A stretch of 64,000 nt of DNA from Chloroflexota bacterium (lineage in GTDB: Bacteria > Chloroflexota > Anaerolineae > Anaerolineales > Villigracilaceae), in contig QMIW01000001.1 of NCBI GenBank assembly GCA_024434165.1, positions 62,001-126,000 of the forward strand. The letters are read 5' to 3'. Of this stretch, positions 15,606 to 33,308 are shown one piece after another. The first letter of the stretch is position 1; each line of letters starts with the position of its first letter. Under the pieces are notes generated by a model. It was not told where the DNA came from. It searched no databases and was given only the letters and a program-made list of their open reading frames with translations. The position numbers and the translations under genes were made by a program.

Positions 15606-16784
15606 ATGAAAAGGAATCGCGCCGCTCTTCCAACCTTTGTCCACACTTTTTGGATGCGCATTATCTCAGCACCTGCCGCTCTCAAACTTGTGGGGCTGGC
15701 AGTCCTGCCAGTAGCGACGATTATTATTTCCGCGTGGCTGTACGCGGAATTTTACATATTCAGACCCTTGCGCGCGAGTCCTGATATTACGCTAAACGCC
15801 CAAACCTTGTTTGATCTTTCGTGGCGGGCGTTTCTCTGGCTTGGCTTGGGCGCGTTGATCGGGATCGGCGCCTCCGTCACGCTGACCTGGGTTCTGATCC
15901 GCCAGCTCAGCGGATTGGTCAAAACGATGGGGCGAGTCGAAGCGGACGACCTGACGGCGCGCTCGCCCGTCTGGTCGCAGGATGAAATCGGACAGGTGCA
16001 AGCCGCCTTCAACACAATGGTCAGCGGTCTGCAGCAATCGCGCGATGACTTGATGAAGAATCAGCGCGAACTGGAATCGCTCGATGCCGAGAACAAACGC
16101 CTGATCGAGGAATTGCGGGACAAAGAAACCGAATTGCGGTTTGCCCTGCGCCGCGCGGTGGATGTGCAGGAAGAGGAGCGCAAACGTATCGCCCGCGAAC
16201 TGCATGATGAAATCGGGCAAGCCCTCACGTCCATTTTGATCCGCCTCAAGAGTCTCCAAAACATAACCGACCTGGACGTGATGACCGACCGCCTTGACGG
16301 CATCCGTTACCTTGCATCGCAGACCATCGAAGAAATGCGCCGCCTCTCCATGGACCTGCGACCTGCCGCGCTGGACAACTTGGGCATTCTCCCCGCCTTG
16401 CGCTGGCACATCGGGCAAAGTATGGAGCAGAACCAGATCGAGATTCAATTCACCGCACCCGAACGCATGGAACGTCTGCCGCCCGAAGTGGAAATTGTGC
16501 TATACCGTGTCGCGCAGGAGGGACTAAATAACGCCATCCGTCACAGCCAGGCGAAACACATCGAAGTAAAACTGGAGCATACGCCGCTCTTCGTCTGGTT
16601 GAGCGTCAGCGACGACGGGCAGGGCTTTGACGCGGACGGATTGCATCGCGGTTTGGGGCTTGTGGGCATCCGTGAGCGCGTGACTCTACTCAAAGGTAAA
16701 TGTGGAATCGAATCACAGCGCGGTAGCGGGGCGCGGCTGTGGGTGGAGATTCCGCTGACGGAGGCAAATCCCGCCCATGCTTGA
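15606..16784 (+). CDS. NarL-type sensor histidine kinase (first pair)
   Basis: 392 residues. Two membrane helices (LVGLAVLPVATIIISAWLYA and a second near residue 85) flank a short extracytoplasmic loop. A HAMP domain, a coiled coil, a HisKA_3 dimerisation domain with the phospho-acceptor histidine in ARELHDEIGQALTSI, and an HATPase_c domain (SDDGQGFD, GLGLVGIRERV) follow. The sensing loop is short, so the signal may be membrane-based or internal. Its stop overlaps the response regulator start by 8 bases. Lies at the head of the molybdoenzyme island. Confidence 0.93.
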   Translation: MKRNRAALPTFVHTFWMRIISAPAALKLVGLAVLPVATIIISAWLYAEFYIFRPLRASPDITLNAQTLFDLSWRAFLWLGLGALIGIGASVTLTWVLIRQLSGLVKTMGRVEADDLTARSPVWSQDEIGQVQAAFNTMVSGLQQSRDDLMKNQRELESLDAENKRLIEELRDKETELRFALRRAVDVQEEERKRIARELHDEIGQALTSILIRLKSLQNITDLDVMTDRLDGIRYLASQTIEEMRRLSMDLRPAALDNLGILPALRWHIGQSMEQNQIEIQFTAPERMERLPPEVEIVLYRVAQEGLNNAIRHSQAKHIEVKLEHTPLFVWLSVSDDGQGFDADGLHRGLGLVGIRERVTLLKGKCGIESQRGSGARLWVEIPLTEANPAHA

Positions 16785-17418
16785 AAATATCCGCATCCTG
16801 CTCGTGGACGACCATGCCATCATGCGCAGCAGTCTGGGTATGCTGCTTGAGTCTTATGGGGCGCGCATCGTGGGAGAAGCCGCAACGGGAGAAGAAGCCA
16901 TCGCTCAGGCGCAGGCGCTCAAACCCGATGTGATCCTGATGGATATCACCCTGCCTGGTATGGACGGGGTAGAAGCGACGCGACGTATCACGGCGGAATG
17001 GGCGCAGGCGCGAGTTGTAGCGCTGACCATGCACGCCGAAGAGGTGTACCTTTCGCCGTTTCTTGAAGCGGGCGGAGCGGGTTACATCCGCAAATCTGCC
17101 GCCGACCGCGATGTGCTGGACGCCATCCAAAAGGTTGTGCAGGGACAGACGATTCTCGATACCCAAAGCGTGCAGGATTTGTTGAAACATGGCAGGAAAT
17201 CGGCGGACGCGCAAGAGGCTCTGGCGTCCCTTTCGGAGCGCGAGCGGGACGTGCTGGTACGCGTGGTGCGCGGATTCACCAGTTCCGAGATTGGCGAACA
17301 GTTGAACATCAGCCCGCGCACGGTGGATACCTACCGCGCTCGCATCATGCAAAAACTGGGGTTGGAACACCGTCATCAACTGGTGGAGTATGCAGTAAAA
17401 AATCACCTGCTGGATTGA
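16777..17418 (+). CDS. NarL/FixJ-type response regulator (first pair)
   Basis: 213 residues. The receiver domain has the acidic pair (LLVDDHAIMRS), the phospho-acceptor aspartate in DVILMDITLPGMDG, Thr in ALTMHAEE and Lys in YIRKSAAD. The C-terminal LuxR-type helix-turn-helix reads SSEIGEQLNISPRTVDTYRARIMQKLGL. It overlaps its kinase gene and is followed by a terminator, so kinase and regulator form a two-gene operon. The genes just downstream (Mo oxidoreductase onwards) are the obvious candidates for control. Confidence 0.94.
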   Translation: MLENIRILLVDDHAIMRSSLGMLLESYGARIVGEAATGEEAIAQAQALKPDVILMDITLPGMDGVEATRRITAEWAQARVVALTMHAEEVYLSPFLEAGGAGYIRKSAADRDVLDAIQKVVQGQTILDTQSVQDLLKHGRKSADAQEALASLSERERDVLVRVVRGFTSSEIGEQLNISPRTVDTYRARIMQKLGLEHRHQLVEYAVKNHLLD

Positions 17419-17442: not shown

Positions 17443-17474
17443 ACGTCCCGAAGGCTTCAACACCTTCGGGACGT
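17443..17474 (+). terminator. Rho-independent terminator after the first response regulator
   Basis: A perfect 12-bp stem (ACGTCCCGAAGG with its complement) with an 8-base loop, followed by TGTTTTT. It separates the two-component operon from the molybdoenzyme gene, which therefore needs its own promoter. Confidence 0.85.
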
Positions 17475-17584: not shown

Positions 17585-20452
17585 ATGCAGCCACAATCTC
17601 CCCTTCAAATCCTTTTCATCGTCCGCCAGCCCAGTCTGCGCGATTCACTGGCGCAGGTCTTAAGCGGATTCGGCTCCGCGCTGCGCTGGACGAGCGCCGC
17701 CACGCCCGCTGACGTGGCACAGGCGTTGGAATCCAAACTGGACTTAATCCTTGCTGACCCGTTTGCGCTGGAACAGGGCGATACCATCGCGTATTACAAG
17801 GCGTTGCGCTGTCGTTTGGGAGCCGCGCCCCTGATTGCCCTGCTCCCCGCCGATACGCCCGAGTACCGTGACGCGGCGGTGCAAATGGGAGCCAACTACA
17901 CGCTCGCATGGAGCGAGACCGCCACCGAGCTGCTGCCCGTCATGGAACGCCTCTTGGGGCGGAAACGGCTGATTACGGGCGTATCGAAGTATATCGAAAA
18001 CGCCGCCAGCCTCAGCGCCCCCGCTGGCGCGCCAGCCTTTGACCCCAGCCTGACCGAGCGCAGCCGCATCAAAATTGAGCGGCTTGCCCAAAAAAGATCC
18101 ATCCCCGAAAACTACAGCCTCCCCCCGATATCCCAATCCACCTTCCTGCGCGGGCTGACCTTTTCCGTCGCCGCGCCGATTTCGCCCGATACCGAGCGCG
18201 TCGTCCGCACCGCCTGCAATCTGAACTGCGGCTCGCATTTCTGCGGATTGAACGCGACCGTGCGTGGCGGGGAGATCGTCAAGATCGAAGCGGCGGATTT
18301 TCCCGACCCGCGCTACCGCCGTTTGTGCATGAAAGGCATTAGCCACGTGCAAATGCAGGCGCATCCAGAACGTCTGCTCACCCCGCTCAAACGCAATGGA
18401 CAGCGCGGACAAGGAGAGTGGGAGTCAATTTCCTGGGAGCAGGCATTGGATGAAATCGCCAAAAAAATGCGCCGCCTGCGGGATGACTTTGGGGCGGAAA
18501 GCCTTGTTTTTCTGCCGTACTCGGGGCAACTCAGCGTGCTGAACGGATTCAATGGAGTCTACCTGCGGCTGGCGGCGGCGCTGGGCGCGTCTGGCACGAG
18601 CCTGCGCGAATACGGAATTGACAGCGCCGTCCCGAGCGGAATCGAAGACACGCTCGGAGCGGGGTCAGGCTATTTGGCAAATGACTTTTCGGATCTGCCC
18701 AACTCGCGGCTGATTCTGATCTGGGGCGGCAACCCCGCCCAAAGCCGCATGAACTGGTGGAGTTTCTTCATGGACGCCAAACGGGCGGGTGCGCGGCTGG
18801 TGACGATTGACCCGCGCTTCAGCCTGACCGCCAGCAAAAGCGACGAGTGGCTTCCCATCCGCGCTGGCACGGATTTACATCTGGCGCTTGCCATGCTCAG
18901 GCTGATTATCGAAAACGACTGGATGGACAGGGAATTCGTCCTGCGTCACACCGTCGCGCCGCTGTTGGTGCGCGAAGATAACGGGGAATTTCTCAGGCTG
19001 GAAAATGCCTCTCGAAACGGCGACCAACCCCAAAGTCTGGTTTGGGATGCGGAAGCGGGGCGCGCACTTCCCGCCGCGCAGTCGTCATCCCCAGCATTAA
19101 GCGGACGACATGTCGTCGCTGGAATCCCGTGCCGCACGGCTTTCGATTTCCTGCGCGAAATGCTCGCGCCTTACACGCCCGAATTTGCCGCCGAAAAGAC
19201 GGGGCTGGACGCGGTGCAGATTTTACGGCTGACGCGCGAATATGCCACTGTCAAGCCTGCCCGCATCATGACCTTGTACGGCATTGACCGCTGGAATCAC
19301 GGCGCGACCTTCGGGCGGCTAATTGTCACGCTGGCGGCGTTTACAGGCAATTTGGGGGTTCACGGCGGCGGCGTGGGCGTGGACGGCTCGCGCGAAGCGA
19401 CCCTACCCGCCAGTGATTTCCCCACGCCCAACGGGAAGAGTCATCGCCCTATCAACCCGCTGCTGCTCCCCGAACAGATTATTTCCGAACAGCCGCATCC
19501 CATCAAGTCCGTCTTCGTGGCGTTCGGCAACTGGATCAACCAACTGCCCGACCAGAACCGCTTATTGCACGAAGCCCTGCCCAAACTGGAATTACTGGTG
19601 GTGGCGGATCATTTTATGACCGAGACAGCGCGTTTCGCCGACTACGTTTTGCCCGCCGCGACTTTCTTTGAGCGGGAAGACATGGTGAAGGGACCTGGAC
19701 CCTACATCCAATACCAGCCCGCCATCGTCGCGCCGCGCGGCGAATGCCGCTCCGATTTCGAGATTGCGGCGGAGTTGGCGAAGCGGCTGGGCTGCGGGGA
19801 CGCTTTCGAAAAGCCGCCGCGCGAATATCTGGTGGAGGTTCTGGCTCGCAACGAAGATACCCGTGCCATTGCGCTGGATGAGTTAATCGCGCAAGGCGTG
19901 ATGAAACGCCGCCTGCCTCTGGACTGGGAAGTGATGCACCGCGATTTGCATTTCCACACCCCCAGCGGGCGTGTGGAATTTTACGTCGAGCGGCTGCTGC
20001 CTTTCGGACGCGCCCTGCCCAAGTACGAACCGCCGCTGGAAGCCTTTCCAGGGAACGAACTTTCGCCGCGTTACCCGCTGGTCTGCCTGACGGAACACAG
20101 CCGTTACCGCGTCCATTCCACCTTTAGCAATGCGCCCTGGTTGCGCGAAATCGAAACCGAACCCCGCGCCGCTGTCCATCCGCTCGAATCGGAACGGCGC
20201 GGCATCGTCGAGCGCGATTGGGTTCGCATCTACAACGGGCGCGGGCACGTCACCCTGCGCGTCCACCTAAGTCAAGCCGTGCCGCCTGGAACAGTTTATC
20301 TCAGCCAGGGCTGGCAATCTGTGGATTTTCAGAATGGGCATGCCCAATCGCTCACGCACGCGCGCGGCAACGCCGCCAACGCTTTCGGCGAAAACAGTTC
20401 CTTCTCCGACGTGTTGGTGGAGATGGAGAAAACAGGGGAGAGCCTGCCATGA
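17585..20452 (+). CDS. Mo-bisPGD oxidoreductase (DMSO reductase family) with N-terminal receiver-like domain
   Basis: 955 residues. Residues 1-125 look like a degenerate response-regulator receiver: alternating strands and helices, an aspartate at the phospho-site position (LDLILADPFAL), but no acidic pair after strand 1 and no conserved lysine. From about residue 205 a molybdopterin oxidoreductase follows. The 4Fe-4S cysteines are CNLNCGSHFC plus a Cys in RRLCMKG, GGNPAQSRMNWW lies in the cofactor region, and the C-terminus is a molydopterin dinucleotide-binding domain. A serine in YGIDSAVP sits where DMSO reductases place the Mo ligand. No twin-arginine signal is seen, so it is probably cytoplasmic. 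It overlaps the FeS subunit gene by four bases. Electron acceptor or donor unknown. Confidence 0.9.
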   Translation: MQPQSPLQILFIVRQPSLRDSLAQVLSGFGSALRWTSAATPADVAQALESKLDLILADPFALEQGDTIAYYKALRCRLGAAPLIALLPADTPEYRDAAVQMGANYTLAWSETATELLPVMERLLGRKRLITGVSKYIENAASLSAPAGAPAFDPSLTERSRIKIERLAQKRSIPENYSLPPISQSTFLRGLTFSVAAPISPDTERVVRTACNLNCGSHFCGLNATVRGGEIVKIEAADFPDPRYRRLCMKGISHVQMQAHPERLLTPLKRNGQRGQGEWESISWEQALDEIAKKMRRLRDDFGAESLVFLPYSGQLSVLNGFNGVYLRLAAALGASGTSLREYGIDSAVPSGIEDTLGAGSGYLANDFSDLPNSRLILIWGGNPAQSRMNWWSFFMDAKRAGARLVTIDPRFSLTASKSDEWLPIRAGTDLHLALAMLRLIIENDWMDREFVLRHTVAPLLVREDNGEFLRLENASRNGDQPQSLVWDAEAGRALPAAQSSSPALSGRHVVAGIPCRTAFDFLREMLAPYTPEFAAEKTGLDAVQILRLTREYATVKPARIMTLYGIDRWNHGATFGRLIVTLAAFTGNLGVHGGGVGVDGSREATLPASDFPTPNGKSHRPINPLLLPEQIISEQPHPIKSVFVAFGNWINQLPDQNRLLHEALPKLELLVVADHFMTETARFADYVLPAATFFEREDMVKGPGPYIQYQPAIVAPRGECRSDFEIAAELAKRLGCGDAFEKPPREYLVEVLARNEDTRAIALDELIAQGVMKRRLPLDWEVMHRDLHFHTPSGRVEFYVERLLPFGRALPKYEPPLEAFPGNELSPRYPLVCLTEHSRYRVHSTFSNAPWLREIETEPRAAVHPLESERRGIVERDWVRIYNGRGHVTLRVHLSQAVPPGTVYLSQGWQSVDFQNGHAQSLTHARGNAANAFGENSSFSDVLVEMEKTGESLP

Positions 20453-21069
20453 CAAAGCGCCTGGTGATGGTCATTGACCTGCAAGCCTGCACGGGATGCA
20501 ACACCTGCTCGGTGGCGTGCAAACAGGAGAATAACCTACCCGACGGCGTGTGGTGGACTCAGGTGGTCACGCTGGGCGACAACGGCAATGATTCGCCTGC
20601 GGGCGAATACCCGAATTTGTTCATGGATTATCTGCCGCTGGGCTGCCAGCACTGCGTCAACGCGCCCTGTGTGGAAGTCTGCCCGTCGGGCGCAACGGCA
20701 CAAACCGAAGACGGGCTGGTCATTCAAGACCCCACCCAATGCGGCGGCTGCCGCTACTGTATGCTGGTCTGTCCCTACACGGGTGTGCGCGTCTTCGCGG
20801 GCGAAACCCTGCGCTACTCTCTGCCCTTCCCGACGGGCGACAACCCAATGATTCATCGTCCATTCACGGTGGAGAAGTGCAATTTCTGCGCCCACCGCCT
20901 CAAGCGCGGACTACTCCCCGCCTGCGTGGATTCCTGCCCGATGGTGGCGCGTACCTTCGGCGATTTGGGCGACCCAAACAGCGAAGTTTCCAAACTGTTG
21001 CGCGAACGTCCGCATTTTCAACTGCTGGTGGAAAAAGGCGCCGACCCCTCCACCTTTTACCTGACCTGA
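20449..21069 (+). CDS. Four-cluster FeS electron-transfer subunit (DmsB/PsrB type)
   Basis: 206 residues from the ATG that overlaps the preceding stop (ATGA); the open frame extends upstream but without homology. Four cysteine groups are visible: CTGCNTCSVAC, CQHCVNAPCVEVCP, CGGCRYCMLVCP and CNFC with CVDSCP. This is the NrfC/PsrB/DmsB family that passes electrons between a quinone-linked anchor or another carrier and the Mo subunit. No anchor gene follows here, unlike the second enzyme set at 29-33 kb, so its redox partner is unknown. Confidence 0.93.
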   Translation: MTKRLVMVIDLQACTGCNTCSVACKQENNLPDGVWWTQVVTLGDNGNDSPAGEYPNLFMDYLPLGCQHCVNAPCVEVCPSGATAQTEDGLVIQDPTQCGGCRYCMLVCPYTGVRVFAGETLRYSLPFPTGDNPMIHRPFTVEKCNFCAHRLKRGLLPACVDSCPMVARTFGDLGDPNSEVSKLLRERPHFQLLVEKGADPSTFYLT

Positions 21070-21072
21070 ACC

Positions 21073-21771
21073 ATGCTGAACCCTGTCTCCGTTTCTGACC
21101 CTTTCCAAAACGCCTTTGGCATCCTCACACAGGTTGCCAGGGATCGCGGCTGCGTCTATCGCTGGCTGGCGCTTGGGTTTTACGCGCCCGATGAAGAATT
21201 GCTTCGGTCACTGCGGGAAGGGTTGCTGAAACAGGAATTGACTCAGGCAACCTACTGGCTCGGCATGGATCAGCGTCCACTGTCGGATTGTTTAAATGAA
21301 GTGAACGCCTATGCTAACGCCAGCCTGCCTGAATTGCAGGCTGCCTACGAAGCGCTCTTCGGCAAGAACGTCTCGCGCATTGCCGCCCGCGAATCCGCCT
21401 ATTTGTGGCGCTCGGTCACGCACCCTGCGGACGCAGCGGGAGAGTTGGACCGCGCCCTCATCAACATCTACAGGCAATACGGACTTAAACCGCAAACAGG
21501 CGCGGAAGACAGCCTGCCCGTTCAACTGGAATTTATCGCCTACCTCTGCCAGTTGGAGACCCAAGCCTGGCAGGCGGGGACTTCCCAAACCGCCCGCGAA
21601 CTGCGCCGTCAGGAACGCGCCTTCCTCACCGACCACTTGGGACGCTGGCTGCCCGAATTTTGTCAGCGCGTGGAGGAAAGGGCATTGCCATCCTTTTATA
21701 CAGCATTATCCGCGTTCGCCTTCCGATGGACGAAACTGGAATACGGACCTGGATATTCCTCTTTGAGTTAA
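21073..21771 (+). CDS. TorD/DmsD-type molybdoenzyme chaperone (first copy)
   Basis: 232 residues, almost entirely helical. The central region has features of the TorD family: YEALFGKNVSRIAARESAYLW and later LPVQLEFIAYLCQLE. These chaperones bind apo-molybdoenzymes and hold them until the cofactor is inserted. It starts 3 bases after the FeS subunit gene. As the neighbouring Mo enzyme lacks a Tat signal, this copy would serve folding and cofactor insertion rather than export proofreading. Confidence 0.85.
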   Translation: MLNPVSVSDPFQNAFGILTQVARDRGCVYRWLALGFYAPDEELLRSLREGLLKQELTQATYWLGMDQRPLSDCLNEVNAYANASLPELQAAYEALFGKNVSRIAARESAYLWRSVTHPADAAGELDRALINIYRQYGLKPQTGAEDSLPVQLEFIAYLCQLETQAWQAGTSQTARELRRQERAFLTDHLGRWLPEFCQRVEERALPSFYTALSAFAFRWTKLEYGPGYSSLS

Positions 21772-21772
21772 C

Positions 21773-23692
21773 ATGCCTGCCATTTACTTCATCTACGGTC
21801 TCGCATTTTTCAGCCTCGGCATGGTCATCTGGGTGGAGAAGCGCCACGCCAGTGACCTGCCGCTGGCGCACCAACTTCCCTGGCTGGCGGCGTTTGCATT
21901 TACTCACAGTCTGGTGGAGTGGCTGGAGATGTTTGTCATGCTCCAGCCCCTACACACTCCGCATGCCGCGCTGGATATCGCCCATGCCGCGCTCTTGCCG
22001 CTCTCCAGCCTGTTCCTGGTTCGCTTCGGCATCGGTCTGATTAATGAAGCAGGTCCCCTGCCCGATTGGATGACCCTCGCTCCCGTCGTCCTGATCGTGC
22101 CGCTGGGTCTGTTACTCGGCTTTGCCCTCATCGTCATCCTCAGTTCAAATTCCACACTGCTGATGGCGGAAATTTGGTCGCGCTATCTCCTTTATTTCCC
22201 TGGCAACCTGTTGGCGGGGTTTGGCTTTCTCAGGCAGTCGCGCCACATTCGAGATTCATATCCTGTACAGGCTTCGCGTTTTCTCAAATTCATATCCACC
22301 GCCTTCTTTATCAACGCCGTCGCAGCGGGGTTGATTCCCCCCGCTGGAACGGGGGGACTGCCCGCCCTAATCAACGAAGAAAGTTTCCTCACCCTTGCCG
22401 GACATCCCGTTCAAATCTGGCGGGCTGTCATGGCGGTTGCCATTGCCCTGTTGTTCGTGGGCGTGCTGCGAATTTTCGAGTTCGAGCGCAGCCGCAAGGT
22501 GACGGAACTCGAAAACCAAAAAGAAGAGGCCCAACGCGCCACTCTCTCCGCCCAGACTCAAGCGCTCCAAACATCCGAAGCCTGGACCGACTCGCTGGTG
22601 GACATTAGCCGCCGCATCGCCAATCTCGAGGATGTAGACTCAATTCTTCGCGTTATCACACACAGCGCCCGCTGCCTGCTGCAAGCGGATATTGCCGCCC
22701 TGGCATTATGGAACGAAGATCTGACCGCGCTGGAGATTCGCTGTGCCGCCCTGCCCGAAGGCGCGCCGCCCAGGAATTTCGGCAGGGTTGAAACGCCCCT
22801 CCTATTGACCGCCGCCCGAAAAGCCGACCCCAGCCTCTTCCCGCAGAACTTCGCTTCTTCTCTGGACTTTTGGGATTGTCCCGCCCTCGAACGGGAAATC
22901 CGCGCCGCCGCCTTTGTGCCGCTTCGCCTGGATGCCCAACCCATCGGCGTTTTCTGGGTCGGCAGGGAAGCAGGCTCCATCTTCTCCACAGGCGACCTGC
23001 TGGGGCTGGAGCGTCTCGCCGCCCAGACCGTCATCGCTCTCGAACACGCCATGATGACCTCCCGCCTGCAATCCCTGGCAACGATGGAAGAACGCGGACG
23101 CATTGCCCGCGAAATGCACGATGGGCTGGCGCAGGTACTGGGCTATGTCGGTATGGAACTCCAAACCATCGAAGCCCTGACGCATGCCCAGAATCAAGAA
23201 GCGGTTCTGTCCGAACTCCAGCAGGCACAGCGCAGCGTCCAACTCGCCCAAGCGGACGTGCGCGAAAACATCCTCAGCCTGCGTACCACTCTGTCCAACG
23301 AAAAGGGCTTGCTCCCCGCTTTGCGCGAATACATCGAAGAGTTTGGTGTGCAAACGGGCATCCAAATGCAATTCCAATGTGGGCTGACCAGCGACCCCGC
23401 CCTATCTCCGCTGGCGGAGGCCCAGCTGACGCGCATCATTCAGGAAGCCCTCACGAACGTCCGCAAACACGCCCGCGCCGAACACGCCCAAGTGCAGATT
23501 GCCCAGCGCAACGGTTCCCTGCGCGTTATCGTCAGCGACGACGGCATCGGCTTCGAGTGCGCTTCCAAGCCTGGGCATTACGGACTGGTCACCATGCGCG
23601 AGCGCGCGGAATCAGCAGGCGGCGGATTGATTGTCACCTCGCAGCCAGGTACAGGCACCAGCGTCGAAACCTGGTTGCCTGTGCTGAAATAG
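21773..23692 (+). CDS. Multi-TM GAF sensor histidine kinase, NarL type (second pair)
   Basis: 639 residues. The N-terminal 240 residues contain about seven hydrophobic helices, starting MPAIYFIYGLAFFSLGMVIW. A coiled coil, a GAF domain (about 275-430), HisKA_3 with the acceptor histidine in GRIAREMHDGLAQVLGYV, and an HATPase domain (SDDGIGFE) follow. Such membrane-embedded N-termini may sense quinones or lipophilic ligands, but nothing here shows the ligand. It begins one base after the chaperone stop, so kinase and oxidoreductase are co-transcribed. Confidence 0.92.
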   Translation: MPAIYFIYGLAFFSLGMVIWVEKRHASDLPLAHQLPWLAAFAFTHSLVEWLEMFVMLQPLHTPHAALDIAHAALLPLSSLFLVRFGIGLINEAGPLPDWMTLAPVVLIVPLGLLLGFALIVILSSNSTLLMAEIWSRYLLYFPGNLLAGFGFLRQSRHIRDSYPVQASRFLKFISTAFFINAVAAGLIPPAGTGGLPALINEESFLTLAGHPVQIWRAVMAVAIALLFVGVLRIFEFERSRKVTELENQKEEAQRATLSAQTQALQTSEAWTDSLVDISRRIANLEDVDSILRVITHSARCLLQADIAALALWNEDLTALEIRCAALPEGAPPRNFGRVETPLLLTAARKADPSLFPQNFASSLDFWDCPALEREIRAAAFVPLRLDAQPIGVFWVGREAGSIFSTGDLLGLERLAAQTVIALEHAMMTSRLQSLATMEERGRIAREMHDGLAQVLGYVGMELQTIEALTHAQNQEAVLSELQQAQRSVQLAQADVRENILSLRTTLSNEKGLLPALREYIEEFGVQTGIQMQFQCGLTSDPALSPLAEAQLTRIIQEALTNVRKHARAEHAQVQIAQRNGSLRVIVSDDGIGFECASKPGHYGLVTMRERAESAGGGLIVTSQPGTGTSVETWLPVLK

Positions 23693-23706: not shown

Positions 23707-24363
23707 ATGAATCCCCTCAAAACCCTGATCGTAGATGATCATGCCCTCTTTCGGCAGGGACTCATCAGCCTGATGAAGACACGCCCCGATCTGGTGCAAG
23801 TCATTGGCGAAGCCTCCAGTGGAGCGCAGGCGGTGCAACTCGCCGCCAAAATGCGCCCTGACCTGGCGCTGCTCGATATTTACATGCCCGAAGGGGACGG
23901 GCTTCACGCCGCGCGCGAGATTCGCAAAATCTCACCCGAAACCGCCATCGTCATCCTGACCTCTTCCGAGCAGGACGAACATCTGCGTGAGGCATTTCGG
24001 CTGGGCGCAGCGGGCTACCTGCTAAAAGACCTCAACGCCAACGAGTTGTTCGACCTGCTGGCGGGCGTGACCAGCGGCGAACCCGTCATCACCCGCGCCA
24101 TGGCAGCCCGCCTGCTCAAACAGACTCTCTACATGCCCGAAAAATCGCGGCCGCATCTTGAAACGCTGACCGAGCGCGAAGTCGAAGTGTTGAGACTGGT
24201 GGCACAGGGCGAGAGCAACCCGCACATCGCCGAAACGCTGTGCATCACGGTTAACACCGTCAAGACTCATCTGAAAAACATCCTGGCGAAACTGCAATTG
24301 GAAAACCGCACCCAGGTCGCGGCGTACGCAGCGCAAAACGGATTTATTTCACAGACTGATTAA
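23707..24363 (+). CDS. NarL/FixJ-type response regulator (second pair)
   Basis: 218 residues. Receiver: LIVDDHALFRQG, phospho-acceptor Asp in LALLDIYMPEGDG, Thr/Ser in ILTSSEQDE, Lys in YLLKDLNA. LuxR-type DNA-binding domain: ESNPHIAETLCITVNTVKTHLKNIL. It lies 14 bases after its kinase and 10 before the next chaperone gene, inside the molybdoenzyme operon, so autoregulation of the whole operon is plausible. Confidence 0.94.
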   Translation: MNPLKTLIVDDHALFRQGLISLMKTRPDLVQVIGEASSGAQAVQLAAKMRPDLALLDIYMPEGDGLHAAREIRKISPETAIVILTSSEQDEHLREAFRLGAAGYLLKDLNANELFDLLAGVTSGEPVITRAMAARLLKQTLYMPEKSRPHLETLTEREVEVLRLVAQGESNPHIAETLCITVNTVKTHLKNILAKLQLENRTQVAAYAAQNGFISQTD

Positions 24364-24373
24364 GGAGACTCAA

Positions 24374-25054
24374 GTGACCACACCCACCACCCTCGATTGG
24401 ACAGAAACTCTGACAGGCGAAATGCTCTTATTCGGCTTGCTGGGGCGCGCATTCCAAAACTACCCCGCCGCCGAAGAACGTCCCTGGCTGCAAACACTCG
24501 TAGACGAAGAGATGTTTGAGGAAGCGCCCTTCGCCGCCTCACAGCCTGACGTGATCGAAGGCTTGCGGCTTTTGCAGGAATGGAGCCGCGCAGGTTTGAG
24601 CGACTCCGCTTGTGAAGACCTGCAGAGCGACTACACCCACACCTTCATCGGTCCTGACAAGGTGCGAGTCGCCCTGTGGGAATCGGTATATTTCAGCAAG
24701 GAACGCCTCACCTTTCAGGAACAAACCCTAGGCGTGCGCGGCTGGTATCGCCGCTTCGGCTTGCAGGCGGAACGCATCTACCACGAACCCGACGACCACA
24801 TCGGTCTCGAACTGGCGTTCCTCGCCCTTCTGGCGCAGCGCGGCATCTCCGCGCTGGAGCGGGGCGAACAGGACGAATTCAACCAACTCCTGCGCGCCCA
24901 GCGCGAATTTTTCGACCAGCATCCCAACCAGTGGGCTACCACATTCTGCGAAGGTGTCCTCGAACACGCCCGCACGCCCTTCTACAAAGGACTGGCGCTG
25001 CTGACGCGTGGCGCATTGATCGAACTGGCGGAAATCCTTCCCAACGGGAGATAA
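24374..25054 (+). CDS. TorD-type molybdoenzyme chaperone (second copy)
   Basis: 226 residues. The TorD core is clear: QSDYTHTFIGPDKVRVALWESVYF and the hinge-like EPDDHIGLELAFLALLAQRG. The start is GTG with AAGGAG seven bases upstream. It is quite different from the first copy at 21 kb; two chaperones match the two Mo oxidoreductases in the island, and this one may serve the Tat-exported enzyme at 29 kb. That pairing is inference. Confidence 0.9.
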   Translation: MTTPTTLDWTETLTGEMLLFGLLGRAFQNYPAAEERPWLQTLVDEEMFEEAPFAASQPDVIEGLRLLQEWSRAGLSDSACEDLQSDYTHTFIGPDKVRVALWESVYFSKERLTFQEQTLGVRGWYRRFGLQAERIYHEPDDHIGLELAFLALLAQRGISALERGEQDEFNQLLRAQREFFDQHPNQWATTFCEGVLEHARTPFYKGLALLTRGALIELAEILPNGR

Positions 25055-25060
25055 TAGCCT

Positions 25061-26245
25061 GTGAATCTCTTTACTGCGGCAGAACGACTGGCAGCGATTG
25101 ACCGCTCCGAAATCACGCTGGACGCGGCGCGTTGTTTGCATTCCCGCGATAAATTCTCCACTTGCGAAGCCTGCCTGAACGTCTGCCCTGCAGATGCGAT
25201 TCAAGCGGATAAACCGCCGCTCCTCGACTCCACCGCCTGCATCTCCTGCCTGACCTGTTTACCGCTCTGTCCATCAGGCGCTTTCTCCGCTGATGATTCC
25301 GTCGCCGATCTGCTGAACTGCGCGGCGCGCGTCGAAAGCCGCGCCGTGGAATTGGTCTGTCAGGCGCACCCCCGCGCTGAAATGGGTCTCTCCGCCGAAG
25401 CGACGGGAATCCGACTGCGCGGCTGTCTGGCGGGACTGGGCGGCGGAACGTACCTCGCGCTGGCGGCGCTGGGCGTGGAGCAAATCACGCTGCGGCTGGA
25501 CGCCTGCGGCGAATGTCCCTGGGTTTCCCTGCGCGGACAGGTGGAGAGGCAATTCAATGAAGCGAAGCAATTGTTGTCTGCTTGGGGCAGGGCGGAGACT
25601 CTACGCCTGACCAACGCGCTGACCGAACCCGTCGAACGCCCATTGTGGGACGCGAAAAATCCACCTCTCTCGCGGCGTGATATGTTCTTACTGGTTTCCC
25701 GTCAGGGACAGATTGCCCTGGCGCGCGCTATCGAGAACCAGCCCGCTAAAGCGGGCAAAAGCATTGGGCGGAATCGGACGCGCATGATCCATGCCGCCGC
25801 GCAATTTGGAGACTTACAGGACAGCGGCGTATCGCTGGCGGGCATGGACTTTGCTATGCTGACGGTCAACGACTCCTGCTCGGCATGTGGCTCGTGTGCC
25901 CGCATCTGTCCCACCGCCGCGCTGACTATTGAGTTGGATGAAGAAGCCCATCGTTACGCCCTGCGCTTTTCGCCCAAAGAGTGCATCAACTGTGAAGCCT
26001 GCCTGCACGTCTGCATGGAAAAAGCCGTCGGCGTGGATTCGGCTCCTACGGCGGAACAGGTTTGGGGTCCGAAAGAGGCGGTTCTTCTTCAAAGTGGGGA
26101 ACTCTCGCGCTGTGAGCATTGCAGTGCGCTGTTCGCCGCCCGCGAGGAAAACCACCTTTGTCCCACCTGCGAATATCGCAGAAAAAATCCGTTTGGCTCG
26201 CGCCTGCCAGCAGGCATGGTCCTGCCTGGAGGAATGAAACGATGA
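25061..26245 (+). CDS. Polyferredoxin-like protein with four 4Fe-4S motifs and a zinc-ribbon tail
   Basis: 394 residues, GTG start. Two N-terminal cluster motifs (CEACLNVCP, CISCLTCLPLCP), a middle domain of about 170 residues with further cysteines (LVCQAHP, CGECPW), then two more cluster motifs (CSACGSCARICP, CINCEACLHVC). The C-terminus has CEHC...CPTC, like a zinc ribbon. Proteins of this layout occur beside TorD and Mo-bisPGD enzymes and probably carry electrons for enzyme maturation or turnover; the exact role is not established by the sequence. Overlaps the radical SAM gene by four bases. Confidence 0.85.
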   Translation: MNLFTAAERLAAIDRSEITLDAARCLHSRDKFSTCEACLNVCPADAIQADKPPLLDSTACISCLTCLPLCPSGAFSADDSVADLLNCAARVESRAVELVCQAHPRAEMGLSAEATGIRLRGCLAGLGGGTYLALAALGVEQITLRLDACGECPWVSLRGQVERQFNEAKQLLSAWGRAETLRLTNALTEPVERPLWDAKNPPLSRRDMFLLVSRQGQIALARAIENQPAKAGKSIGRNRTRMIHAAAQFGDLQDSGVSLAGMDFAMLTVNDSCSACGSCARICPTAALTIELDEEAHRYALRFSPKECINCEACLHVCMEKAVGVDSAPTAEQVWGPKEAVLLQSGELSRCEHCSALFAAREENHLCPTCEYRRKNPFGSRLPAGMVLPGGMKR

Positions 26246-27564
26246 TTACCGAAATTGACCGCGCCGCGTTGGGGGATATCCGCAACCCCGCCTTCCGCGC
26301 TTACGCTTCGCGCTACGTTGACATTAGCGAAGACTTTATTGAACAGATTGGCAAGTTTGGCGTGCCGCTCAAAGCGGAGGACGGGCAGGAGATGAAAACC
26401 CGTTTGGAGCGATTGCGCGAAAAAGGCGCGCATGTCCGCAACGATGAGCGCAGCGTGTATATCAATAACATCTCGCCCGCCTGCCTTGCCTGCCAGACGG
26501 GCGTGGGCAGCGCCACGCTGTTCGTTTCCTTGAAATGTCATCGGCAGTGTTTCTTTTGCTTCAACCCGAATCAAGAAAATTACGAGGGCTTCTCGGCGCA
26601 GACCCGCGACCTGAGCGCCGACCTGCAAGAGTTCAAGCGCCGCGACGCGTGTATGAAGCATTTGGCGCTGACGGGCGGCGAGCCGCTTTTATACAAGGAA
26701 GAAACGCTGGAATTTTTCCGTGAAGCGCAGCGGCTGTTCCCTGGCGTTTACACGCGCCTCTACACCAGCGGCGACCACGCCGATACCGCCACGCTGACGG
26801 CGTTGAAAGAGGCGGGCTTGCAGGAGATTCGCTTCAGCATCCGCGTGGAGGACAGCCCGCAGGCGATCCGTCACACGCTGGGAAGAATCGAAGAAGCGAA
26901 AGAGTACATCCCGTTTGTGATGGTCGAAATGCCCGTCCTGCCTGGCAAACTGGACGAGATGAAAGACCTCCTGCGCGAGTTGGAGCGCATCGGCATTTTC
27001 AGCATCAACCTGCTGGAGTTTTGCTTCCCACTCTTCAACGCCGAGGAATACAACCAGCGCGGTTACGCGGTCAAGACGCCGCCCTATCGCGTTACGTACA
27101 ACTACTGGTACGCGGGCGGACTGCCTGTGGCGCAAAGCGAACTGGACTCGCTGGAACTGCTCGAATTTGCATTGGACAACGGTTTCAAGATGGGCGTCCA
27201 TTACTGCTCACTGGAGAACAAGCACACCGGGCAGGTCTATCAGCAGAATCACAGCGGGTTTGCGCCAGAGATGGCGTTGGCGTCGAAAAAGGATTTTTTC
27301 TTTAAGACCGCCAAAGTCTTCGGCGAGGATGTTCCCCGCGTGAAAAAAGTTTTGGAAAAGAGGAAAAAAGCCATATACAACTACCAGAAACAATTCGATT
27401 GCCTGGAGTTTCACGTCCGCGACATCCGCGCCCTGCAGGGCTTGGACGTGGAAATCGGCATCGCTACCAGCATCCTGGAACAGCGCGGTGGCAAAACGCT
27501 GACGCGCGAACTCAAAATGGAATTCACCACCCCCAGACTTTTCGATCTGGAGATGGATATCTAA
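26242..27564 (+). CDS. Radical SAM protein of the molybdoenzyme island
   Basis: 440 residues from the ATG overlapping the previous stop; the longer open frame upstream is not used. The radical SAM cluster motif is SLKCHRQCFFCF (CxxxCxxC), followed by LTGGEPLLY. Extra cysteines precede the motif (CLACQTGVG). The TIM-barrel core runs to about residue 260, and the rest has no domain I recognise. Co-translation with a polyferredoxin suggests that the latter supplies electrons for SAM cleavage. What it modifies is unknown; a tailored cofactor or peptide modification of the island's enzymes is possible. Confidence 0.85.
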   Translation: MITEIDRAALGDIRNPAFRAYASRYVDISEDFIEQIGKFGVPLKAEDGQEMKTRLERLREKGAHVRNDERSVYINNISPACLACQTGVGSATLFVSLKCHRQCFFCFNPNQENYEGFSAQTRDLSADLQEFKRRDACMKHLALTGGEPLLYKEETLEFFREAQRLFPGVYTRLYTSGDHADTATLTALKEAGLQEIRFSIRVEDSPQAIRHTLGRIEEAKEYIPFVMVEMPVLPGKLDEMKDLLRELERIGIFSINLLEFCFPLFNAEEYNQRGYAVKTPPYRVTYNYWYAGGLPVAQSELDSLELLEFALDNGFKMGVHYCSLENKHTGQVYQQNHSGFAPEMALASKKDFFFKTAKVFGEDVPRVKKVLEKRKKAIYNYQKQFDCLEFHVRDIRALQGLDVEIGIATSILEQRGGKTLTRELKMEFTTPRLFDLEMDI

Positions 27565-27783: not shown

Positions 27784-28575
27784 GTGACCGCTAAACCTGA
27801 CCTAATTTCCAAGCCCCGCCGTGGCTGGGCGGGGTACTTCCGCGCTTTCGGGCGCGCCCATCGCAAAGCTAGCGCGCAGATGGAAACTTCCATGCCGCTC
27901 TTGCGTCACCTGGATGAACTGCGCAAGCGCGTCTTCAAGGCGTTTGCGGCGGTCATCGTTGGCGTAGGAGTTAGTTTCGCCTTCACCGAGCAGGCGATCA
28001 ACTACCTTGCTTCTCCCATCGGCGGGAGCGAGGCGCTGGTCTCCATCGAAGTCACCGAAAACATCGCGGTCTATATGCGCGTCGCCCTGCTCGGCGGGGT
28101 GATTCTGGGGATGCCAGTCATCCTCTATCAAGCCATGCGCTTCATCCTGCCCGGCTTGCAGGGGCGCGAGAAACTCTGGCTCATTCTGGGCATTCCCTTT
28201 GCCAGCCTGCTCTTCGCCGGGGGGATGGCATTCACCTGGTTCGTGATGATTCCCACCGCCGTACCGTTCCTGACCAGTTTCATCGGCATCACCACGCAGG
28301 TGCGCCCCGCCAGTTACTTCGACTTCATTACCAACCTGATGTTTTGGATTGGCTTGAGTTTTGAAATGCCCATCGTCTTCACGCTGTTGGCGCGGCTGAA
28401 ATTTGTCACCGCCAAACAACTGGCAAGCGGCTGGCGCTACGCGGTGGTTGCCATCACCATCGTGGCGGCGGCGATCACCCCCACCGTGGATCCGGTCAAC
28501 ATGGGGCTGGTGACGCTTCCGCTGATGGGCTTGTATATCGTCAGCATTGTTCTGGCGTGGATCGCCGGGAGGTAA
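27784..28575 (+). CDS. tatC: Sec-independent translocase subunit TatC
   Basis: 263 residues. Conserved N-terminal motif PLLRHLDELRKRVFKAF and six membrane helices; RPASYFDFITNLMFWIGLSFEMP is the family's signature region. TatC binds the twin-arginine signal. The GTG at 27784 has AGGAGG about 15 bases upstream; an internal ATG at 27880 would remove an unusual basic 32-residue extension before the conserved region. Likely dedicated to the Tat-exported reductase encoded 0.5 kb downstream. Confidence 0.94.
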   Translation: MTAKPDLISKPRRGWAGYFRAFGRAHRKASAQMETSMPLLRHLDELRKRVFKAFAAVIVGVGVSFAFTEQAINYLASPIGGSEALVSIEVTENIAVYMRVALLGGVILGMPVILYQAMRFILPGLQGREKLWLILGIPFASLLFAGGMAFTWFVMIPTAVPFLTSFIGITTQVRPASYFDFITNLMFWIGLSFEMPIVFTLLARLKFVTAKQLASGWRYAVVAITIVAAAITPTVDPVNMGLVTLPLMGLYIVSIVLAWIAGR

Positions 28576-29114: not shown

Positions 29115-31712
29115 ATGAATGAAGAAAGCATGATTCAAAAAGCCCTGACCGACACGGTCCTCACCCGGCGCAGTTTCCTAAAATGGAGCGCGGCGCTGGG
29201 CGGAACCGCCGCGTTGGCAGGCGGCATGAACCTCGGCTTGAAAACAGTCGAGGCGGCTGTGCAAAACGCCGCAGAGACAGACGGAAAATGGGTGACGGTA
29301 GCCTGCTGGCATAACTGCGGCGGACGCTGTCTGCTCAAAGCCCATGTGGTTGATGGTGTGGTGACCCGGGTTAAGTCTGACGACACTCACCCCGACAGCC
29401 CCAATTTCCCGGTTCAGCGCGCGTGCGTACGCGGACGTTCCCAGCGTATGCAGGTCTTTGGCGCAGACCGATTGAAATACCCCATGAAGCGAAAGAACTG
29501 GGCGCCTGGTGGCGGCAAGAAGGAACTGCGCGGCAAGGATGAATGGGTGCGCATTTCGTGGGATGAAGCGCTGGATATATTTGCGACCGAAACCAAACGA
29601 ATCTTAGATGAACACGGGAACAAATCCATCTATGCCACCTCGTATGGAGACGCGTTTGGCGCTCTGTATTACGACCCCATGTCGCGCATCTTCAGCGTTT
29701 TGGGCGGTAATGTCGGCGCCTGGGGAACGGTCTCTTGGGGAGCATGGCCTGCGCCAAGCATCCACATGATGGGTGGATTCCCCAATACCAACGATCGCCT
29801 AGACCTTCAAAATTCTAAGCTAATTGTGCTTTGGGGAGCCAATCCTGCCTGGAGCCGTCAGGGAAACACGACTTCGTTCTACATGGAAGCGAAGCGGGCT
29901 GGAGCAAGGATTATCTGTGTGGATCCGATGTACTCTGCCACGGCAAAGACACTGGCGGACGAATGGATTCCCTGCCGCCCTGGCACGGATACCGCTCTGC
30001 TGTTGGCTATTGCTTACCACATGATCGAAAACAACCTGCAGGATCAGGCTTTCCTTGACACCTACGCGGTTGGTTTTGATCGCGATCACATGCCGGAGGG
30101 CGCAGACCCCAAGGAGAATTTTAAGGACTATGTGCTCGGTAAGTATGATGGCACACCCAAGTCTCCTGAATGGGCTTCGGAAATTTGCGGTACCCATCCC
30201 AGCGTGATTCGCTCGCTGGCTCAGCAAATAGCAACCACCAAACCTGCGGCATTTATCAGCTCCTATGCGCCTGCGCGAACGAACCGCGGCGAGCAATATG
30301 CCCAGGCATTTTTCACAGTTGGTTGGATGACCGGCAATGTCGGCATTCCGGGCGGCGTGGTAACCTGGGATCCACTGCCAGGCGGACCGCCACTGGTCAA
30401 ACTTGGACCTCGTGGAACAAGTTATAAAGACAATCCCGTATTTCCATCAAAATACCTGTTCCCGTTCCCTGATCCGGCGGATGAGACTTGGACGGGGCTC
30501 AACTGGTCCGAACAATGGGACGCCATCCTGAACGGAGAATACACTGCAGGCGTGCGCGGGAAACAGCCCATTGACATCCGCATGATCTACCACGGTCACA
30601 GCGCCATGCTCAATCAATCGCCAAGTTTAAACAAAGGCATTGAAGCACATCGCAAAGTAGAGTTTGTCGTGTCAGCGTCGCAGTTTCTTACCACCAACTC
30701 CAAGTACGCTGATCTGGTCTTCCCAGTAACGACCTACTGGGAGCGCGTTGGAGACTTAATATCCGCCAATCGCGAGTCCATCTTCTGGTGGCAGCAAGCC
30801 AGCCAGCCGTTGTTCGAGGCGAAGAGTGACCTTGACATTGCGCTTGCTCTGGCTGAGAAAATGGGAATTGATATTGAAATGATTCCCTTTGAACAGGTTA
30901 TATTTAACCAGGTCGCTGGGGCTGAAGTCATCAAACCTGACGGCTCAGGTTTTGAAAAGCTAGTCACCATTACCACCGATGACATTAAGGAATGGGGTGT
31001 GGAAGGCGAACCCCAAAAAGGGCGCATCGCGCTCAAAGAGTTCCAGGAGCAGGGTGTTTACCAGGTCGAACGCAAACCCGGTGACAGATTCACCCACATT
31101 CAACTAAAGGCTTTCCGGGATGACCCAGTCGCTAACCCGGTTGGCACTCCCAGCGGAAAGTTGCAAATTCACAGCGCCAACCTCGCCGGTCATATCGCCG
31201 CGTTTGGGTGGGATGAGATCGCGCCAATTGCAAAGTATGAGCCGCCCGTGGAAGGATACGAAGGAACGCTAGACGGCAAATATCCGTTACAGTTGTGGAC
31301 ACCGCATTATTTGCGTCGCAGCCACTCGGTCTTCGACAATGTTACCTGGCTGCGTGAAGCTTTCCCGCAGGAAGTCTGGATGAACCCCATGGACGCCAAA
31401 GCGCGCGGCATCGAACAGGGCGACACCATTAAAATCACGACAAAGCACGGCACCGCATTACGCCACGTCAAGGTGGATGCCGGTATCATGCCCGGCACGA
31501 TCGCAACCGGCGAAGGCGCCTGGGCCGACCGTGACGATAATACAGGAATTGACATGGCTGGTGCAACCAATAGTCTGTGCGGTCCTGTTCCAACAGGGCA
31601 GGGTGTTCAAGGGTGGAATACTACCAATGCCCAAGTCGAAATATGGACTGGGAAATCAATTGGAGCGGATTATAAACAGCCTCAACGCATCATCTTTGGA
31701 GAGGAGGCATAA
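29115..31712 (+). CDS. Tat-exported Mo-bisPGD oxidoreductase, DmsA-type catalytic subunit
   Basis: 865 residues from the ATG at 29115, which has GGAGG upstream; the frame is open 20 codons further but unsupported. A twin-arginine signal (TRRSFLKW, Arg18-Arg19) and a hydrophobic stretch predict Tat export. The 4Fe-4S cysteines are CWHNCGGRC plus a Cys in RACVRG. The serine in WGTVSWGAWP is at the position of the Mo ligand of DMSO reductases. A C-terminal dinucleotide-binding domain is present (RGIEQGDTIKITTKHG). Followed after 2 bases by the FeS subunit and then the anchor. DMSO, N-oxide, selenate, tetrathionate or another acceptor cannot be told apart by eye. Confidence 0.92.
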   Translation: MNEESMIQKALTDTVLTRRSFLKWSAALGGTAALAGGMNLGLKTVEAAVQNAAETDGKWVTVACWHNCGGRCLLKAHVVDGVVTRVKSDDTHPDSPNFPVQRACVRGRSQRMQVFGADRLKYPMKRKNWAPGGGKKELRGKDEWVRISWDEALDIFATETKRILDEHGNKSIYATSYGDAFGALYYDPMSRIFSVLGGNVGAWGTVSWGAWPAPSIHMMGGFPNTNDRLDLQNSKLIVLWGANPAWSRQGNTTSFYMEAKRAGARIICVDPMYSATAKTLADEWIPCRPGTDTALLLAIAYHMIENNLQDQAFLDTYAVGFDRDHMPEGADPKENFKDYVLGKYDGTPKSPEWASEICGTHPSVIRSLAQQIATTKPAAFISSYAPARTNRGEQYAQAFFTVGWMTGNVGIPGGVVTWDPLPGGPPLVKLGPRGTSYKDNPVFPSKYLFPFPDPADETWTGLNWSEQWDAILNGEYTAGVRGKQPIDIRMIYHGHSAMLNQSPSLNKGIEAHRKVEFVVSASQFLTTNSKYADLVFPVTTYWERVGDLISANRESIFWWQQASQPLFEAKSDLDIALALAEKMGIDIEMIPFEQVIFNQVAGAEVIKPDGSGFEKLVTITTDDIKEWGVEGEPQKGRIALKEFQEQGVYQVERKPGDRFTHIQLKAFRDDPVANPVGTPSGKLQIHSANLAGHIAAFGWDEIAPIAKYEPPVEGYEGTLDGKYPLQLWTPHYLRRSHSVFDNVTWLREAFPQEVWMNPMDAKARGIEQGDTIKITTKHGTALRHVKVDAGIMPGTIATGEGAWADRDDNTGIDMAGATNSLCGPVPTGQGVQGWNTTNAQVEIWTGKSIGADYKQPQRIIFGEEA

Positions 31713-31714
31713 CC

Positions 31715-32338
31715 ATGGCTAAGCAAAAAGCTTTTTACTTTGATGCAAGCGCCTGCATTGGCTGTAAAGCCTGTCAAATCGCCTGCAAAGATAAGCATGA
31801 TCTTCCACTTGGCGTACGCTGGCGCAGGGTATTTGAGTATGGTGGAGGAAGTTGGGTAGAGCAAAATGGAGTCAAGGTTCCAAGTTCTCTTTTCTCCAGT
31901 TACCTCTCCACCGCCTGTCAGCACTGCGAGAGTCCGGTCTGTCGCGATGTCTGCCCAGTGCAAGCCATCACCAAACGGGACGATGGCATCGTCATCCTGG
32001 ACAGCGAAAAGTGCATTGGCTGCCGCTACTGTGAATGGGCGTGCCCCTATGGCGCGCCGCAGTTCAATGAAGAAACCAAAGCCATGACCAAGTGCCACTT
32101 CTGCTACGACCTGCAGGCACAGGGACTGAACCCCGCCTGCGTGGACGCCTGCGTCATGCGCTGTCTGGATTATGGCGAGCTGGATGAACTACGCGCCAAA
32201 TACGGCGATCTCAACGAAATTGAACCTCTGCCGACCAATGAGATCACCCACCCGTCGCTTGTGATTACCCCGCACAAGCACTCGCAAAAAAGCGGCGCGG
32301 GCACCGGCAGAATCCTCAACCTAGAAGAGGAGGTGTGA
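31715..32338 (+). CDS. DmsB-type four-cluster FeS subunit
   Basis: 207 residues. Cysteine groups CIGCKACQIAC, CQHCESPVCRDVCP, CIGCRYCEWACP and CHFC with CVDAC give four 4Fe-4S clusters. It wires the anchor's quinol site to the catalytic subunit. No signal of its own, so it should be co-exported with the catalytic subunit as in E. coli DmsAB. GAGGAGG precedes the ATG. Ends one base before the anchor gene. Confidence 0.94.
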   Translation: MAKQKAFYFDASACIGCKACQIACKDKHDLPLGVRWRRVFEYGGGSWVEQNGVKVPSSLFSSYLSTACQHCESPVCRDVCPVQAITKRDDGIVILDSEKCIGCRYCEWACPYGAPQFNEETKAMTKCHFCYDLQAQGLNPACVDACVMRCLDYGELDELRAKYGDLNEIEPLPTNEITHPSLVITPHKHSQKSGAGTGRILNLEEEV

Positions 32339-33270: not shown

Positions 33271-33297
33271 GGGTGGGGAGGCTGCGCCTCCCCACCC
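33271..33297 (+). promoter_or_regulatory. Strong hairpin between the anchor gene and the WD40/haem gene
   Basis: A perfect 12-bp GC-rich stem (GGGTGGGGAGGC with its complement) around a 3-base loop, starting 10 bases after the anchor stop. There is no T-run, so it may act as an RNA stabiliser or processing site, or as a weak attenuator, rather than a full terminator. Confidence 0.6.
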
Positions 33298-33308
33298 TCA
33301 AATCCCCC

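Follow-up and report, generated by a model that had tools for sequence, protein, structure and literature searches.

A dimethyl sulphoxide reductase-family catalytic subunit with an N-terminal pseudo-receiver, encoded between two kinase-regulator pairs in Chloroflexota

Sensor enzymes and pseudo-receivers are both known kinds of protein, and response regulators with enzyme domains are known as well. HoxBC, the regulatory [NiFe] hydrogenase, is described in the sections of PMC10073562 and PMC6978683 drawn on here as a cytoplasmic enzyme that serves as a sensor and acts on the kinase HoxJ, with HoxA as the regulator, and according to the review PMC12632262 18 of the 20 atypical regulators that it describes are orphans. 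The present analysis concerns a gene in a stretch of 64,000 nucleotides from a Chloroflexota bacterium (assembly GCA_024434165.1, contig QMIW01000001.1, positions 62,001 to 126,000 of the forward strand; hereafter the window), which encodes a dimethyl sulphoxide (DMSO) reductase-family catalytic subunit with a pseudo-receiver fused to its N-terminus and lies between two kinase-regulator pairs. This architecture, first noticed in an earlier note made from the letters of the DNA alone, is confirmed, and the interpretation offered with it is partly supported as a whole.

The fusion gene (17585..20452, forward strand, as are the other features of the window up to the DmsC-like gene) starts with an ATG, the first start codon past the upstream stop, and encodes 955 amino acids. 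When the full-length protein was scanned, Pfam recognised molybdoenzyme domains only, namely Molybdop_Fe4S4 (residues 205-256), Molybdopterin (263-734) and Molydop_binding (833-924), and residues 1-204 had no match at E<=1. The molybdoenzyme body, delimited by Pfam, PDB matches and conserved metal-site residues, occupies residues 205-955 (18197..20449), beginning where the earlier note had placed it. The pseudo-receiver domain, recognised by profile, Pfam, AlphaFold2, Foldseek, VIA-align and hhalign, occupies residues 1-129 (17585..17971), and residues 130-204 (17972..18196) comprise the rest of its long last helix, a predicted helix at 154-171 and a variable linker, as judged from the alignment and from AlphaFold2 at low confidence beyond about residue 145.

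A profile was built from seven homologous N-termini, of which the other six are 31-94% identical to that of the window; such a family profile was needed because the window's N-terminus alone, as a single-sequence query of the PDB, gave nothing better than E 0.38 (PmrA). With the profile, 13 distinct PDB sequences were retrieved at E<=0.001 (best 2.4e-6, the response regulator 4e7o), all of which bear names of two-component proteins (response regulator, PmrA, CheY2, transcriptional regulator or hybrid two-component protein); at E<=1 there were 65 sequences, the 60 listed being mostly named receivers or response regulators, with one de novo protein. The window's N-terminus alone scored 14.1 bits (E 0.053) against the Pfam family PF00072 (Response_reg), short of the curated cut-off of 30.2 bits, and five of the seven family N-termini matched Response_reg at E<=10 (best 2e-5), with no other Pfam family listed. 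Alignment of the N-termini by hhalign to the receivers of the two neighbouring response regulators, RR1 and RR2, gave probabilities of 93.3 (E 2.8e-7) and 92.5 (E 4.7e-7), respectively, against 0.1-0.2 for four unrelated control sets from the same loci.

For residues 1-208, AlphaFold2 predicted elements in the order b1 a1 b2 a2 b3 a3 b4 a4 b5 a5, i.e. (beta-alpha)5, with model confidence (pLDDT) by block of 70-90 through residue 130 and low past about residue 145, helix a5 being predicted to be long (residues 109-143). Foldseek returned 399 PDB matches to this model at E<=0.001, the 50 listed all being, to judge from their titles, receivers or response regulators, and VIA-align gave a best Z of 16.5 over 135 residues (root-mean-square deviation 2.3), with 713 of 998 chains at Z>=8. 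All three methods point to a CheY-like fold spanning about residues 4-144, and in the model residues 1-129 take the (beta-alpha)5 form that matches solved receivers. The receiver-like domain claimed for the N-terminus is thus borne out by profile, fold prediction and both structure comparisons, and no fold unrelated to CheY emerged.

Active-site positions were read from the hhalign alignment of the N-termini to RR1, and the threonine position from the seven-row N-terminal alignment. At the position of the acidic pair the window has V13-R14, the Val being common to all seven N-termini and followed by R, R, H, K, P, P and S; the conserved lysine position (108) holds A, A, A, L, N, R and A, and the threonine position (87) is Leu in six and Ile in one. 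The loss of the acidic pair and the lysine, which had been noted for the window, therefore extends to the whole set. The reading of the phospho-site (58) needs correction: the window does have an Asp there, although the residue varies among the seven N-termini (D, D, D, A, E, E and D). Because the acidic pair and the lysine are absent in 7/7, the N-terminal domain is, from its sequence, a pseudo-receiver as defined in the part of PMC12632262 used here, though the sequences of that source were drawn from PF00072 matches, a threshold that the window's copy does not reach.

Relatives were drawn from the phylum (400 genomes, in an even draw with two candidates scored for each), the class (396) and the family (152). 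N-terminus and body were found together in eight genomes, namely that of the window (G000), G482 (locus L039, DDSH01000012.1), G522 (L040, JAUQXA010000050.1), G028 (L041, JAJYLQ010000025.1), G248 (L043), G624, G657 and G594, in the last of which the gene is split across two contig ends (L087 and L088). The fusion occurs in 3/400 genomes of the phylum draw (the same three being among the matches listed in another search), in 6/396 of the class draw and in 5/152 of the family draw, where its matches had E 1.9e-100 or better and the next match 1.1e-7; six short peptide patterns, a method that reaches close kin only, recovered three loci from the contig database. The fusion is thus rare, yet present across the families f1, f118 and f105. 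In G657 the gene is broken near its 3' end (L086 2112-4718, with an open reading frame near 4476-4935), the last part of the body lying in another frame, by assembly error or in reality. Further candidates for stand-alone or divergent copies were rejected: an extra profile match in G795 (E 1.6e-13) is a 127-residue receiver in which the acidic pair and the lysine are, by eye, intact, and which lies among other kinases and regulators; a match in G525 (E 3.4e-6) is a 974-residue protein that starts with a receiver and has, by eye, no molybdoenzyme part; and a match in G534, with an alignment starting from query residue 53, is a molybdoenzyme with a twin-arginine (Tat) signal and without a pseudo-receiver.

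Purifying selection acts on residues 1-128 as it does on the body. The nonsynonymous and synonymous rates (dN / dS) between the window and L041 are 0.081 / 0.964 for residues 1-128 and 0.106 / 0.934 for the body, and those between the window and L040 are 0.029 / 0.262 and 0.037 / 0.304, respectively; between the window and L043 synonymous sites are saturated, and identity is 43% in the N-terminus, 31% in the linker (129-204) and 63% in the body. These values bear on the possibility that the resemblance to receivers is due to chance or that the start codon is wrong, the real one lying near residue 185. Distant relatives (about 25-41% identical) do begin near there, with a Tat signal or directly, and the relatives without the domain reach at most 41% identity over several hundred residues; all the relatives found that are more than 50% identical over the body retain the region. 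Neither of the two outcomes that the earlier note named as refuting its reading, an unrelated fold or homologues lacking the region with a better-supported start, overturned it. With the region constrained like the body, kept in eight genomes and recognised as a receiver by both profile and fold, a false start or chance likeness is given practically no credence.

The history of the body was examined in a tree of 23 rows, in which L086 is represented by a 606-residue piece and the halves of the G594 fusion gene are not included. The six fusion rows form one clade (100/100) and five DmsA rows from the cluster another (100/100), the two being far apart, and descent of the fusion from the cluster's own DmsA was therefore rejected; the tree resolves no sister group for the fusion clade. 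G248 (L043) is placed with the f118 rows L085 and L086 (91/89, below the program's 95/80 mark), whereas its genus mate G028 (L041) groups with the window, which hints at lateral transfer between lineages or an old duplication.

The body has the features of the DMSO reductase family, with all three molybdopterin domains above the Pfam cut-offs and with the cysteines of the iron-sulphur (FeS) motif (C211, C215, C220 and C248) and the candidate molybdenum (Mo) ligand (D346/S347) identical in 7/7 homologues. Its best PDB matches are to the perchlorate reductase PcrA (5e7o/4ydd), whose D170, which we take to be the Mo ligand, is aligned with D346. It falls below the NCBIfam cut-offs of the 25 families listed out of 27, and scored 339.8 bits against a cut-off of 984.75 for TIGR03479 (DMSO reductase type II). 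The next gene encodes FeS1 (20449..21069), a ferredoxin-like subunit with 16 cysteines, kept in 6/6 loci, in which no hydrophobic segment was found. Since the metal-site residues of the body and the cysteines of FeS1 are kept throughout, cofactor binding by the enzyme can be expected. Exported molybdoenzymes such as DmsA carry an N-terminal twin-arginine signal, unlike the fusion: no Tat motif was present in any of the six fusion rows scanned, the arginine pair is absent from all seven aligned homologues and no hydrophobic segment was found in the window's fusion protein, on which grounds a cytoplasmic location is predicted.

Residues 182-196 (18128..18172), ISQSTFLRGLTFSVA, resemble the start, VSRRTFLKGLGALGA, of a different L040 molybdoenzyme. 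From 11 Tat stretches, with the two arginine columns left out, a motif was derived and tested against shuffles, the likeness having been noticed before testing; it beats them in four of the seven homologues, three of these being close kin (window, L040 and L041), and is not significant in L085 (p 0.12), L043 (0.62) and L087 (0.58). The segment is possibly an eroded Tat signal, a reading given not quite even weight. Both this motif and the dedicated chaperone TorD1, encoded in all loci, would suit the idea that the domain replaced the Tat signal as a device for maturation or retention, for instance by contacting TorD1, with no role in signalling. Such a role would not need a receiver fold, and would leave unexplained the linkage to the upstream kinase described below as well as the three homologues in which the motif is not significant, and it is regarded as very unlikely.

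The gene is preceded by HK1 (15606..16784), a histidine kinase with HAMP, HisKA_3 and HATPase domains, whose two hydrophobic segments are separated by a very short stretch, and by RR1 (16777..17418), a NarL-type response regulator with receiver and GerE domains. FeS1 is followed by TorD1 (21073..21771), a chaperone of the TorD / Nitrate_red_del type, by HK2 (21773..23692), with a hydrophobic N-terminal region, GAF, HisKA_3 and HATPase, and by RR2 (23707..24363), another NarL-type response regulator; Pfam thus upholds the kinases seen earlier on either side. The order HK1-RR1-fusion-FeS1-TorD1-HK2-RR2, strand included, is kept in 8/8 fusion genomes by tblastn, in three families of the class (the window, L039, L040, L041, L043, L085 and L086, plus G594 across the two contigs L087 and L088).

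The two kinases differ in how closely they accompany the fusion. Close orthologues of the N-terminal part of HK2 (E<1e-85, followed by a gap to 1e-41) are present in 7/392 genomes of the class, and six of the seven have the fusion. The exception is G534 (96% complete), in which HK2-RR2-DmsABC is flanked by different genes and no fusion was found elsewhere in the genome. Full-length orthologues of HK1 were found in all the six fusion genomes tested (best E 2.8e-259 to 8.2e-92), but none in G534, where the best match covers the general kinase core only (E 7.4e-52, residues 165-385). A search of 224 genomes with HK1 residues 1-170 gave whole-length matches, among those listed, only in G000, G028, G594, G624, G657 and G018; G248 was not among the matches listed. 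These patterns are suggestive of HK2-RR2-DmsABC being separable and of HK1-RR1-fusion-FeS1-TorD1 behaving as one module. In 6/6 cases HK1 has an intact H-box and two hydrophobic clusters about 15-35 residues apart, and appears from this to have hardly any way of sensing the outside by itself.

A receiver fold without phosphorylation chemistry, the gene order, the co-occurrence with HK1 and the precedent of HoxBC lead us to favour, tentatively and somewhat short of an even chance, the reading that the fusion is a cytoplasmic sensor enzyme acting on HK1 through its pseudo-receiver, by analogy with the regulatory hydrogenase and without belonging to it; the small outside part of HK1, the kept metal sites and the lack of a detected Tat signal or hydrophobic segment also count for it. 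The fusion subunit and FeS1 would form the sensor enzyme, whose turnover or redox state would follow the substrate on which the exported molybdoenzyme from the downstream gene acts. The pseudo-receiver would dock on the cytoplasmic part of HK1 as a receiver would, without accepting a phosphoryl group, and the state of the enzyme would set the output of HK1-RR1 and, together with HK2-RR2, the expression of the cluster. The mode of action would be that of HoxBC with HoxJ and HoxA, but built on a molybdoenzyme that carries its own docking domain. The earlier note's proposal that the enzyme may dock to the kinases or be controlled allosterically gains indirect support from the gene order and the HK1 co-occurrence. 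A fuller account, with a regulatory molybdoenzyme that lost its Tat signal, gained the pseudo-receiver and became the cytoplasmic input module of a sensor-less kinase, so that a respiratory reductase would be controlled according to the substrate or redox state reported, is entertained with more reserve.

Several observations weigh against a sensor enzyme. Intact metal sites suit a working enzyme as much as a sensor. Receivers usually meet kinases through the helix a1 side, and the conservation table gives its highest values in the pseudo-receiver to the b4-a4 surface with its loops (0.79-1.00), helix a1 having 0.65. The full-length AlphaFold2 model, from a seven-row alignment, has a mean pLDDT of 41, from which no domain contacts can be derived. 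The contrast behind the co-occurrence of HK1 and fusion is provided by a single genome, G534. In addition, G018, of the window's genus, has a 94% match to the HK1 N-terminus at a contig edge (C26:360-869, L147) with no fusion match beside it, weak matches to the pseudo-receiver (E about 0.002) and no close HK2; representing an assembly gap or a loss, it was counted neither way.

The strongest rival explanation is a plain cytoplasmic reductase or dehydrogenase in which the pseudo-receiver is structural, mediating dimerisation or subunit contact via a5 and the b4-a4 face, with the two-component systems on either side acting on transcription only. The position of the best conserved surface and the predicted length of a5 fit this explanation, as do the metal-site residues, the FeS1 cysteines and the dedicated chaperone in all loci. 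It leaves unexplained the company that the fusion keeps with HK1-RR1, the joint absence of fusion and HK1 in G534 and the restriction of the receiver-type domain to this molybdoenzyme among those compared; it is a serious possibility, albeit one that we would rather doubt than accept. The signal may also run in reverse, HK1, RR1 or another two-component protein binding the pseudo-receiver and switching the enzyme without phosphorylation. The conserved gene order would suit such control, and pseudo-receivers acting by binding two-component proteins are treated in the part of PMC12632262 used here. The loss of receiver chemistry, a linker that is the least conserved part of the protein between the window and L043, and a full-length model without a fixed contact between domain and enzyme argue against a reversed signal and make it unlikely.

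A terminator-like hairpin of 12 pairs with a T tract lies between RR1 and the fusion gene (17443..17474), found by a pattern scan that gave two sites in 261 bases against 0.4 expected from shuffles; RR1 and the fusion gene may therefore be separate transcripts. Downstream of RR2 lie TorD2, a second chaperone (24374..25054), and FeS2, a polyferredoxin-like protein (25061..26245), both of which are placed outside the core because they are absent from several fusion loci within the stretches compared (a separate TorD2 from L040, L043, L085, L086 and L088, and FeS2 from L040, L085, L086 and L088). A radical SAM protein, recognised from Pfam and gene order (26242..27564), follows; it reaches the cut-off of none of the 12 NCBIfam families listed, and perhaps acts in maturation. 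FeS2 and radical SAM genes are adjacent after RR2 in the window (25061-27564), L039 (17477-19977), L041 (17640-20146) and L043 (16411-18911), and in L040 the radical SAM gene is present without FeS2.

An open reading frame named by eye as TatC-like (27784..28575) is kept in L039, L040 and L043. The exported DmsA-like catalytic subunit (29115..31712) bears the Tat motif TRRSFLK, and is followed by a DmsB-like FeS subunit (31715-32338) and a DmsC-like membrane protein (32340-33260), named by eye and kept in L085, L086, L088 and L133. A Tat-bearing molybdoenzyme is encoded downstream in the window, L085, L086 and L088, where it is DmsABC-like, and also in G028 and L040, the stretches of L039 and L043 ending before the position where one could show. 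Beyond the DmsC-like gene, a long open reading frame (33273-36269) has WD40-like repeats by eye and three CxxCH motifs, and may encode a partner of the exported enzyme that carries haem. The hydrophobic N-terminal region of HK2 (21773-22630) recurs in 190/392 genomes of the class at E<=1e-8 and has no Pfam name at E<=1; it may represent a membrane sensor domain of Chloroflexota kinases that has yet to be described.

In the part of the literature covered, no DMSO-reductase-family enzyme was found as the partner of a pseudo-receiver; the survey of Asp-less receivers (PMC4395418) has no word beginning with 'molybd', and 'oxidoreductase' is absent from the available parts of the 2025 review (PMC12632262). 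A pseudo-receiver fused to an enzyme of measurable redox state, beside a likely kinase, makes its role directly testable. If the sensor reading holds, molybdoenzymes would join the metalloenzymes that serve as two-component inputs, which would suggest a way in which some Chloroflexota tune anaerobic respiration. To our knowledge, it would be without precedent both as a sensor enzyme of the DMSO reductase family and as a pseudo-receiver that has a molybdoenzyme for its effector.

Among known proteins, AmiR of Pseudomonas (PDB 1qo0_D) is like the N-terminal domain in fold (VIA-align Z 15.0); its receiver-like domain acts through contact with a partner protein, without phosphorylation, and its effector binds RNA and is no enzyme. 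With DMSO-reductase-family catalytic subunits the fusion shares Pfam's three molybdopterin domains and the alignment of D346 with PcrA D170, and it differs from them in the added pseudo-receiver and in having no Tat signal that could be found. Like the bacterial pseudo-receivers of PMC12632262, as far as the parts drawn on extend, it combines a receiver fold with the absence of active-site residues; unlike them, it has a molybdoenzyme as effector and its gene lies between two kinase-regulator pairs. The regulatory [NiFe] hydrogenase HoxBC-HoxJ-HoxA, as portrayed in the sections cited at the outset, is likewise a redox metalloenzyme whose genes accompany those of a kinase-regulator pair and, in most of the fusion loci compared, of an exported enzyme from the wider family to which it belongs; for the fusion, the cytoplasmic location is a prediction. 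The fusion is not a member of the HoxBC/HupUV group, its body being a molybdoenzyme and not a [NiFe]-hydrogenase catalytic subunit, and it also differs in its fused docking-type domain, in the membrane location of HK1 and in a kinase complex that we infer.

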